Shown here: piece after piece, positions 20,530-58,380 of the stretch
Layout of the letters: every line of letters starts with the position of its first letter
Numbering within the stretch: position 1 is the stretch's first letter
From: Streptomonospora litoralis
GTDB taxonomy: Bacteria > Actinomycetota > Actinomycetes > Streptosporangiales > Streptosporangiaceae
Direction: 5' to 3'
Length of the DNA: 64,000 bases
Assembly (NCBI RefSeq): GCF_004323735.1
Contig: NZ_CP036455.1
Span: 1,545,101-1,609,100, forward strand
Position numbers and translations under genes: made by a program
Notes under the pieces: model-generated
The model's database searches: none
Told to the model about the DNA's origin: nothing
Seen by the model: only the letters and a program-made list of their open reading frames with translations

Positions 20530-20550
20530 GACGCGGCCGACGAGAGCGGC

Positions 20551-20690
20551 TCGGGTCTGCCGGGCGGTCTTGTTGGTCTGCCGGGCGGCGGGCGGTCTTC
20601 ACTGGAAAGCCGCGGCGAGGATGCCAGTGGATCAGGCCCGCAGTCACCGGGTCGGGGGCTCGCGGGTGGCGCGCCCGACGGGGGCGGCGA
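20551..20690 (+). repeat. Dispersed repeat R1, forward copy E
   Basis: The unit starts GGTCTGCCGGGCGGTCTTGT and contains a second GGTCTGCC, a GGAAAGC motif and, about 100 bp in, a CGGGGGCTCGCGGGTGG segment. Copies in the same gap lie inverted at 20925 and 21065, and others lie at 57058-57325 and 58128-58380. The copy is non-coding. Confidence 0.7.
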
Positions 20691-20742
20691 CGACGTCGGC
20701 GGGGCCAGGCACCTCGCCCCCGGCCCCCGATCCGAGAAGCCG

Positions 20743-20804
20743 CGCCGAGTCTGTCTGTGGGGCTAGGTTCGGCGCCGAATCTAGCCCCACAGACAGACTC
20801 GGCG
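20743..20804. repeat. 62-bp near-perfect palindrome
   Basis: The left arm CGCCGAGTCTGTCTGTGGGG continues to the centre GGCGCC, and the right arm mirrors it, with one mismatched pair next to the inner TTCGG/CCGAA. There is essentially no loop, so the DNA could extrude a cruciform and RNA would form one long hairpin. It lies midway between forward repeat E and reverse repeats F and G. Confidence 0.9.
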
Positions 20805-20817
20805 GGACCGGTGCCAC

Positions 20818-20873
20818 CTATTGCGGGGTTTCGACCAGACAGCGGCCGGAATTTAGCAGAAACCGCGCAATAG
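20818..20873. repeat. 15-bp inverted repeat with 26-base spacer
   Basis: CTATTGCGGGGTTTC (20818-20832) pairs with GAAACCGCGCAATAG (20859-20873), with one mismatch. It lies 13 bases past the 62-bp palindrome and belongs to the same structured block. Confidence 0.85.
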
Positions 20874-20924
20874 ATGCGCCGACCGGCCTGCGGCAGCCGA
20901 ACGCCGCCCCCCGCCGACCACCGC

Positions 20925-21050
20925 CACCGGTGAGCCCCCGACTCGTCGACTGCAGGCCCCGGCCCAGCGCCGTCCTCAGTGCCCGCTGTTCCCCGTCAGG
21001 TGACCCGCTTCCCGGCTGACCAGCAAGGCCGCCCAGCGGACCGGGGCCGC
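20925..21050 (-). repeat. Dispersed repeat R1, reverse copy F
   Basis: Inverted relative to copy E. It shares the CACCGGTGAGCCCCCGACTC segment, GCCCGCTGTTCCCCGTCAG and the terminal CAGCAAGGCCGCCCAGCGGA. It is directly repeated at 21065 with a 140-bp period. Confidence 0.7.
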
Positions 21051-21064
21051 CCCGCCGCGCGGGC

Positions 21065-21183
21065 CACCGGCGAGCCCCCGACTCGTCGACCGCAGACCCC
21101 GGCCCACCGCCGCCCTCGCTGCCCGCTGTTCCCCGTCAGACGACCCGACACCCGGCAGACCGACAAGTCCGCACAGCTATCCG
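21065..21183 (-). repeat. Dispersed repeat R1, reverse copy G
   Basis: Direct tandem neighbour of copy F (140-bp period), ending CCGACAAGTCCGCACAGC. Its right end coincides with the point where the GntR reading frame listed next stops resembling the family. Confidence 0.7.
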
Positions 21184-38483: not shown

Positions 38484-38560
38484 TGGGGTGAGTGAGGGGA
38501 CTTGAACCCCCGACTTCTTGGACCACAACCAAGTGCTCTGCCGACTGAGCTACACCCACC
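38484..38560 (-). tRNA. tRNA-His (anticodon GTG), CCA encoded
   Basis: 77 nt including the extra 5-prime G(-1) that marks histidine tRNAs. Acceptor GTGGGTG pairs with CACTCAC (one G-T), the anticodon arm is CTTGG-TTGTGGT-CCAAG with anticodon GTG, the T loop is TTCAAGT, and the 3-prime end is C73 then CCA. It lies directly downstream of orn, a common actinobacterial arrangement. Confidence 0.97.
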
Positions 38561-57057: not shown

Positions 57058-57190
57058 TGGGTCTGCTGTGCGGCCTTGTTGGTCTGCCGGGGTGCGGGCG
57101 GTCTTGCGGAAAAGCGGCGGCGAGGGCGGCGGGTGGCCGGGCCCGCGGTCGTCGGGTCGGGTGCTCGCCGGTGGCGGCGGCCGGCGGGGC
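57058..57190 (+). repeat. Dispersed repeat R1, forward copy A
   Basis: GGTCTGCTGTGCGGCCTTGT is followed by TGGTCTGCCGG, a GGAAAAGCGGCGGCGAGG core and CGGGTGCTCGCCGGTGGCGG. It is directly repeated as copy B at 57191, and matches copy E at 20551. Confidence 0.8.
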
Positions 57191-57325
57191 ATGGTCGGGT
57201 CTGCTGTGCGGCCTTATTGGTCTGCCGGGGTGCGGGTGGTCTTACGGAAAAGCGGCGGCGAGGACGGCGAAGGGCTGGGCCCGTGCCCAACGGGTCGGGT
57301 GCTCGCCGGTGGCCCGCCCGGCGGG
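57191..57325 (+). repeat. Dispersed repeat R1, forward copy B
   Basis: Direct tandem copy of A with a period of about 136 bp, highly similar through GGAAAAGCGGCGGCGAGG and GGGTCGGGTGCTCGCCGGTG. A partial third copy C (about 57326-57410) repeats only the second half of the unit. Confidence 0.8.
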
Positions 57326-57447
57326 GCGGCGAGGGCGGCGAAGGGCTGGGCCCGCGGGCGTCGGGTCCGGTGCCCGCCGGTGGCGGCGGCCGACGGGGGC
57401 GGCGAGGGCGCGGGGGTGCCGGGAGGTGCTCGCGGGCCCGTTATGGC

Positions 57448-57520
57448 GCAGGGCGGCGCGACGATCGTGCCCGTATGACGAGATCCAGCGGCGTTCTTTG
57501 GGAATTCGGCCACGATCGCC
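57448..57520 (+). repeat. Dispersed repeat R2, copy 2
   Basis: Matches 17601-17673: GCAGGGCGGCGCG, CGTATGACGA and CAGCGGCG are shared. Here it follows directly after the R1 tandem copies. Confidence 0.65.
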
Positions 57521-58127
57521 ACGACCTCCGCGGCCGACTTCGGCACGTCGGACATAGCGGGCGCGGGGACTGGCAGGTGCCGCCGCCGTGTTCCGGCCGG
57601 GCCCGCGCCGGCCGGAGGCCGCGCGGCGGGGCGCGGTCGCGGGCGCTCGCACGCCCTCGGTGGTGCGCCGGATCGGGGGTCGGGGGCGACGACGCGTCGC
57701 TCGTTGCGCCCGGGCGTCGCCTCCGGGTGCTGCACCCGCCGATGGGGTGGACTTTTGGGGGCCTATGCCCGTTTTGCGGGCGGCCTCGGCGGGCGCGGCG
57801 GCCACGAGACGCACGAAAAGTTGACTTCGGGGCTGTTTTCGCGCCATTCGGCGCGCTTCGTGTGCCGTCGCCGCCGCGGCGCGAGTGCGGGCCCACCGGG
57901 AATTCGGGCGTTGGCGGGCAAAACACCCCGCAGTTTTTCGTATCGTGGAATGACGGTGCGAGGGTGGTGCCTCGGGGTGGCGCCGAGGCGGGTGCCGTCG
58001 CACGTACGTGCATCTCGTGGCCCCGATCCGGCCGCATGACCGCCGCCGGGAGCCCCGCATCAGGCCCCGCCGACAACCGGGCGGTGGCGCGCCGGGCTCG
58101 ACCACACGCGGCCGGGGCCGGTGGCCA

Positions 58128-58380
58128 CCGCCCCGACCACCTTAGGCCCGGCGCCGTCGGCGTCGTCGCCGCCCTTCGTCGGCCGCCGTCACCGGCGAGC
58201 ACCCGGCCCGGTGGGCGCAGGCGCCACCCCGCAGTGCCCTCGCCGCCTTCGTCGGCCGCCGCCACCGGCGAGCATCCGGCCCGGTGGGCGCAGGCCCGGC
58301 CCTGCGCCGCCTTCGCCGCCGCCTTCCCGTGAGGCCACCCGCCACCCGGCAGACCGAGAAGACCGCACAGCGGACCCGAG
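58128..58380 (-). repeat. Dispersed repeat R1, reverse copies D
   Basis: About two and a half units in inverse orientation: GCCGCC-TTCGTCGG-CCGCC and CACCGGCGAGCA occur twice, and the block ends ACCGAGAAGACCGCACAGCGGA, the mirror of the R1 start. It faces copies A-C across about 700 bp. Confidence 0.7.

Follow-up and report, generated by a model that had tools for sequence, protein, structure and literature searches.

Foldback-like, non-autonomous repeat elements, partly with IS5-type ends, in Streptomonospora litoralis

Introduction

In the eukaryotic foldback elements Galileo and Tetris the number of sub-repeats varies, and in bacteria the BOX elements of Streptococcus pneumoniae have the modular structure boxA-(boxB)n-boxC. 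BOX elements form a single array in a single orientation and have no mirror arms, unlike the family described here, to which we liken them by description and not by sequence. MITEs are small by the usual criterion, below ~600 bp. The family shares with Galileo and Tetris long and internally repetitive inverted ends around a centre (PMC3573991, PMC4079207), and it resembles the BOX elements in being made of dispersed repeats that are thought to be parasitic and have extensive secondary structure (PMC3049150). It differs from Galileo and Tetris in being bacterial and in bearing IS5-type ends on a subset of its copies, and there is no evidence of descent from them.

Two kinds of bacterial MITE lie closer. 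The BrickBuilt MITE of Porphyromonas gingivalis has a tandem repeat and lies between genes, and it is described with a single array of 23-nt units and 19 copies in one strain (PMC4596501), whereas the present family has two mirror arrays around a palindromic centre, 137-bp units and over 100 clusters. The IS5-family MITEs (IS427-like) would be comparable in their terminal repeats, their CTAG/TA target, their lack of coding capacity and their presumed mobilisation in trans; unlike them, the elements of this family are mostly larger, are filled with mirror-image tandem arrays and palindromes, and reside in a genome without a match to the transposase of the candidate IS that we found in a congener (genome G005). 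Among the papers listed by a search of the open literature, with subscription papers mostly outside it, there was no description of such an R1 mirror-array family. The family is one of non-autonomous, partly IS5-ended, foldback-like bacterial elements and, if this is true, it would be the bacterial equivalent of eukaryotic foldback transposons.

Results

Two loci in the window

The window, a stretch of 64,000 nt of the S. litoralis genome (contig NZ_CP036455.1, positions 1,545,101 to 1,609,100), holds two loci built from a unit, R1, that has a period of ~137 bp and of which the profile HMM spans ~117-119 bp. R1 is divided into an outer half, named module A, and an inner half of ~73 bp, module B, which is what the half units consist of. 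The parts of the two loci are as follows.

20539-20671, + strand: locus 1 left arm, a spacer of ~16 nt (20539-20554, deduced from the profile of outer ends) and a forward R1 unit (20555-20671, nhmmer match)
20743-20804, no strand: locus 1 centre, 62-bp palindrome P1, core TCGGC-GCCGA
20815-20876, no strand: locus 1 centre, second inverted repeat P3, CTATTGCG..CGCAATAG (position converted by hand from the locus 1 centre, 20672-20920, read reverse-complemented)
20919-21041, - strand: locus 1 right arm, inverted R1 unit (R1 HMM)
21063-21178, - strand: locus 1 right arm, outer inverted R1 unit (R1 HMM)
57061-57179, + strand: locus 2 left arm, forward R1 unit 1 (R1 HMM)
57199-57313, + strand: locus 2 left arm, forward R1 unit 2 (R1 HMM)
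57325-57387, + strand: locus 2 left arm, half unit, module B only (repeat finding and R1 HMM)
57388-58183, no strand: locus 2 full-length centre, in the version common to 46 aligned loci of the genome
58184-58249, - strand: locus 2 right arm, inverted half unit, module B (repeat finding and R1 HMM)
58257-58375, - strand: locus 2 right arm, outer inverted R1 unit (R1 HMM)

An earlier, sequence-only reading of the window had placed the one forward and two inverted units of locus 1 to within a few bases of these positions. The 62-bp palindrome that it described is present, with arms that are 97% complementary and no loop, as is the array that it saw at locus 2, which has two forward units and half of a third on the left, and one inverted half unit followed by a full one on the right. 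Neither locus holds a called gene (codon-usage gene caller), in keeping with its statement that both are intergenic, and neither carries IS5-type ends (TIR scan, up to 3 of 14 mismatches). Rfam searched over the window gave a tRNA gene (38487-38559, minus strand) as its sole match, with one sub-threshold match at locus 2 (17.3 bits, 37.8 needed). Taken as a whole, the observation made in that reading was partly confirmed and its interpretation partly supported.

Family size, order and placement

That reading was right about the layout of the units at the two loci, but in reporting the element as found twice it set the count far too low. Searched over the whole genome with 3 mismatches or fewer, the R1 core pattern has 133 and 131 matches on the two strands (264), against 1 for the same pattern read backwards, so the duplication is indeed not a matter of chance. 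We sampled 91 stretches around R1 and TIR hits, plus the window, 1,076,088 bp in all, and this sample contains 356 R1 units in 102 clusters, a count for the sample and not a genome total; the two loci are thus far from being the only ones. Clusters were joined over gaps of up to 1,600 bp, and at least one (L057) includes a forward unit that looks like a stray match beyond a gene. Seventy-four clusters run forward then reverse, one is double (two adjacent elements), 11 have forward units only and 16 reverse units only, with no reverse-then-forward order among the 102; all 75 clusters with both orientations therefore run forward, centre, reverse. Most arms have 1-5 units, forward on the left and reverse on the right whenever both are present, and the elements have the inverted arms of tandem sub-repeats in variable number that mark a foldback element.

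Elements avoid divergent gaps. With genes called by a codon-usage caller made for this analysis, 99 clusters have a called gene on each side, and these lie in 54 tandem, 37 convergent and 8 divergent gaps, compared with 396, 137 and 133 for all adjacent gene pairs of the sample and 105, 40 and 49 for gaps longer than 400 bp. The elements contain no transposase of their own, with only 3 of the 102 clusters overlapping a called gene by more than 100 bp. In one of these (L093, own-genome position ~2273605-2275168) an IS110-family transposase gene (Pfam DEDD_Tnp_IS110) is inserted in the element centre; the other two genes, which we take to be acetyltransferase-like and siderophore-interaction-like, lie between neighbouring units.

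Centres and arms

The centre of locus 2, which had been called unique, is in fact widely shared: 66 of 67 compared centres (175-917 bp) match at least 47 of the others, and the 46 centres of at least 600 nt align to give an 813-nt consensus, in which no convincing reading frame was found. The shorter centres are taken as deletion forms. Three palindromes of ~62 bp each, P3, P1 and P2, stand in that fixed order in the most variable part of the centre, with many centres lacking one or two of the three and some lacking all. Near own-genome position 1671772, a P3-like palindrome (CTATTGCGCGG..) lies just outside the units of an element (L046), from which the centre palindromes may themselves be separate small repeats.

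In a comparison of 254 full units, those from the same arm have a similarity of 0.819, against 0.772 for units from opposite arms of an element and 0.770 for units from different elements, and arrays seem to lengthen through tandem duplication. The idea that the two arms are kept alike locally can be rejected on the last two figures, with 214 of 500 permutations reaching 0.772. A structured RNA formed by the R1 unit was likewise rejected: in 50 sequences no strong consensus hairpin was found, and only 5 of 30 predicted pairs have any double change. Near-identical copies with unrelated flanks were seen for 7 elements.

IS5-type ends and the CTAG target

Many loci share one of two ends outside R1, both of which begin GCCGTGTTTAAGAA. 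The sequence TANGCCGTGTTTAAGAA, with up to 2 mismatches, has 61 matches in the whole genome and its reversed control 0. A 14-bp TIR (up to 3 of 14 mismatches) is found at one or both ends of 43 of the 102 clusters, and at 58 of 204 cluster ends compared with 4 of 188 in control stretches. Among 28 listed TIR pairs, 21 were kept and 7 dropped, the second end of the latter resembling a chance match. The kept pairs span 217-1841 bp, 17 being above 800 bp and 18 above 600 bp, beyond the small size of a MITE. An equal dinucleotide flanks both sides in 15 of the 21 (TA 14, TG 1), as target duplication would leave, and the 6 with no matching dinucleotide count against the IS5-type explanation. Where the ends of an element are typed differently and its centre could be compared, end-type order agrees with centre orientation in 8 of 10 elements.

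The base preceding TA or TG is C in 49 of the 60 TIR ends of the sample (up to 2 mismatches, T[AG]N required in front), so that the usual setting is CTAG. The sample holds 278 CTAG sites, 36 coding, 49 at stop codons and 193 intergenic, with coding DNA making up 71% of it; CTAG is scarce within coding sequence and enriched at stop codons. At 22 of the 60 TIR ends the junction is the exact stop-codon end of a gene reading into the element. The element's first base, A or G, completes TAA or TAG, and because it starts with one of these the stop codon is rebuilt and the length of the gene is unchanged. The family thereby illustrates a way for a transposon to enter a stop codon and restore it; a search of the open literature on IS5 MITEs at stop codons listed nothing relevant.

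A candidate IS5-family partner

The congener G005 has an IS of 1,038 bp with TAGGCCCTGTTTAAGAAG at both ends, in 5 copies (5 pairs at equal spacing), the protein of which matches Pfam DUF4096 and DDE_Tnp_1 and NCBIfam IS5_3. Ends of the same kind as those of an autonomous IS are thus found on the TIR subset, and not on the two window copies. Searched with this transposase, the own genome (G000) gave 0 matches at E <= 0.001, and hence no autonomous partner in the same genome, and the other 5 of 6 genus genomes gave matches, most of them distant. Since the own genome is without a match, the family seems to be orphaned there, if an IS5-type element was its motor. IS427-group elements are tabulated with mostly 2-bp repeats and with ends that measure roughly 13-21 bp (PMC3281130), a group that the 2-bp duplication would fit; counting against an IS5-type origin, E. 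coli IS5 is reported to make a 4-bp repeat at CTAA/CTAG-like sites and not one of 2 bp (PMC11677980).

An IS630-family element with three near-identical copies was considered as the source of the ends and rejected: the terminal repeat that it carries itself starts with GTGTTCTGCGCCTGAAATCC, and one copy simply adjoins an element end. These copies (L153, L154 and L155) are ~1,147 bp long with a 368-aa frame, and the adjoining one sits in TA.

Copies without TIRs

The TIR end is absent in 59 of the 102 clusters at up to 3 of 14 mismatches, both window loci among them, which argues against a single IS5 route. These copies look no older than those with TIRs: nearest-neighbour centre identity has a median of 87.7% without and 90.5% with TIRs (n=41 and 23, p 0.73). 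No duplicated flank was found around 25 TIR-less elements, the mean longest shared word being 5.48 versus 5.59 when shuffled and 76 of 100 shuffles reaching 5.48. The target-site duplications that the sequence-only reading had proposed as a check are therefore present, as TA or TG, in 15 of the 21 kept TIR pairs but not around the 25 TIR-less elements.

The outer ends of TIR-less copies have a sharp boundary ~12-16 nt outside R1, between GGGGCGGCTCGG and GTC, at 74 of 113 ends by a rough regex sorting, and inner array units end in the same spacer (130 units). L076, a complete copy without TIRs, aligns at 97% with the interior of the larger element L037 and stops at the boundary on both sides. 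Since the window copies have no TIRs and TIR-less copies are no older than the others, a second process is likely, either recombinational replacement between copies or a second kind of mobility.

Empty sites and relatives

Empty sites, which the reading had proposed to look for in sister strains, were found at two places in a sister species, Streptomonospora sp. PA3. For the TIR element at 929646-930909, the joined flanks align at 78% across the junction to one element-free PA3 stretch. For locus 2 of the window, the neighbouring genes (43% and 79% identical) lie ~387 bp apart in PA3 versus ~1,850 bp here, and the PA3 gap has no R1 or PA3-unit match at E <= 1, with a divergence that makes the insertion borders unreadable. 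The gene to the left of locus 1 had no orthologue in the other five genus genomes.

Positional orthology was assessed for 32 PA3 loci against the sampled 1.08 Mb, a part of the genome picked for its R1 and TIR hits. For three loci both orthologous flanks enclose an R1 cluster, for 1 both are present with no element between them, 9 have one side only and 19 have no orthologous flank. By our estimate about one shared site could arise by chance, and the three are modest evidence for shared sites; taken as such, these 3 of 32 PA3 elements at sites occupied here too make some elements old, a point against the explanation favoured here. The shared sites also hint at concerted evolution, because units differ between the species yet are alike within each genome.

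The mirror layout recurs, with diverged sequence, in PA3 and in other genera. Thirty of the 32 PA3 loci run forward then reverse with 72-bp, B-only units, one of the remaining two having an extra unit and the other being cut by a contig end. In a comparison of nine PA3 centres their long matches were 77-91% alike, and they hardly match the own-genome consensus, with short centre stretches and the P1 palindrome corresponding between the two species. Some PA3 centres (e.g. L309:3400-4396, query part 684-956) seemingly hold a nested short IS5-type MITE, a part that also occurs alone at other places in PA3. In 18 stretches of four genomes of other genera (G028, G026, G012 and G015) there are 9 forward-reverse pairs, 9 single units and no reverse-forward pair, and nine stretches of the congeners G001 and G005 yielded one unit in total. 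The R1 core had 0 matches in the scanned named genomes, the own genome possibly left out of that scan. A DNA search with the centre listed 42 of 60 genomes, the own one included, and outside the latter gave only short matches (best E 2.6e-8), which are taken as chance in GC-rich DNA.

Covariation in the P1 palindrome

From 22 own-genome and 13 PA3 copies of P1 we obtained 18 and 12 distinct rows after dropping duplicates. In these 30 distinct copies from two species 96.1% of cells are paired, a value inflated by their selection as near-perfect dyads (at least 24 of 29 pairs); copies selected by sequence instead are 93.1% and 93.5% paired (both strands counted). Double-sided changes occupy 129 cells, versus a shuffled mean of 47.7 that no shuffle of 500 raised to the observed value and slid controls of at most 22, the copies being related and the cells thus non-independent events. 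The covariation score is 0.400 versus 0.166. Two measures did not exceed the shuffles, in that a double change occurs at all in 14 of the 29 pairs (shuffled mean 12.5) and further pair types number 24 (shuffled mean 27.0). Once the three outermost pairs are set aside, 6 cells are G-U and 19 hold other mismatches, in a dyad that has no loop, and the covarying pairs switch from Watson-Crick to Watson-Crick. Because one Watson-Crick pair is replaced by another and G-U cells are few, the covariation fits DNA better than RNA. We read its source as arm-to-arm templated correction, or as selection on a cruciform or a dyad-binding protein.

Discussion

The data presented here lead us to conclude, with good though not complete confidence, that both window loci are TIR-less members of a dispersed, non-coding, non-autonomous mobile family, the TIR subset of which was inserted by an IS5-type transposase acting in trans. 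An element is built, in a foldback layout, from an outward-facing tandem R1 array, a centre rich in palindromes and a second such array in inverse orientation, and a large subset is bounded by 14-bp TIRs, GCCSTGTTYAAGAA, of the same kind as the ends of IS5-family ISs. The putative mobiliser, an IS5-type transposase in trans, would insert these TIR copies mostly at CTAG with duplication of TA, and tandem duplication would probably change the length of the arrays. Copies without TIRs could have lost their ends, could stem from homologous replacement of one element by another, or could have taken some second route. The sequence-only reading had offered a non-autonomous mobile element or a structured regulatory RNA family; the many dispersed copies, the near-identical copies with unrelated flanks, the TIR subset with TA on both sides and the empty sites speak for the former, and the latter is not supported, given the lack of an Rfam match above threshold, the weak R1 covariation and arms that resemble each other no more within an element than between elements.

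The sharp boundary at 74 of 113 TIR-less ends could have a further meaning. It might mark the ends, spacer plus module A, of an older mirror-array element that was captured in an IS5-type MITE in this species, for which we would put the chances slightly below even; that such an element spread through several genera by homologous replacement or by some unknown DNA-structure-dependent route, for which we know of no enzyme, and was partly carried by the MITE, is a possibility that likewise falls just short of an even bet. The 97% match of L076 to the inner part of L037, ending at the boundary, speaks for such layering, as do the B-only 72-bp units of PA3 set beside the module A found at both ends in other genera, and the TIR-less copies that look as recent as the TIR copies. 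However, inner units share the spacer, and the boundary could be a mere unit boundary; also on the other side, no duplicated target was found for TIR-less copies, and the nine G001 and G005 stretches hold one unit in all. An extension of this idea, which we regard as rather doubtful, is an ancient mirror-array class belonging to Streptomonospora's bacterial family and predating the IS5 ends, with DNA-structure-based spread and homogenisation and repeated mergers with IS5 MITEs. Hairpin or cruciform templating with copy replacement, by which palindromes would change in both arms at once, is in our view an unlikely part of it, and the same tentative standing applies to the mergers proposed, in which ends were captured in this species and a MITE became nested in the PA3 centre.

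Two further readings can be set beside these. A structured non-coding RNA at the 3' ends of genes, for example a bidirectional terminator or a 3'-UTR structure, would fit their placement (37 convergent, 54 tandem and 8 divergent of 99) and the strongly covarying centre palindrome. We consider it very improbable: there is no Rfam match above threshold, R1 covariation is weak, the two arms of an element are not co-maintained, species differ in presence and absence, and the palindrome, a loopless dyad, changes from Watson-Crick to Watson-Crick with 6 G-U against 19 other mismatches. A BIME/REP-like architectural element, selected for binding a nucleoid protein or gyrase, appears to us equally remote. 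The intergenic 3'-end placement, the high copy number and the 3 of 32 PA3 loci at shared sites would suit it, but REP units are palindromic and of 20-40 bp (PMC3733652), against ~137 bp for R1, and 19 of the 32 PA3 loci are without an orthologous flank in the sampled regions, with 1 having both flanks and no element.

For a dispersed, non-autonomous mobile family as we favour it, the P1 copies have a use of their own, as the family provides a natural set of covarying DNA palindromes for telling arm-to-arm templating from selection. As to where the elements lie on the chromosome, in a sample that favours strong hits and with the place of the origin assumed, 64% of the 102 clusters fall in the half nearest contig position 1.
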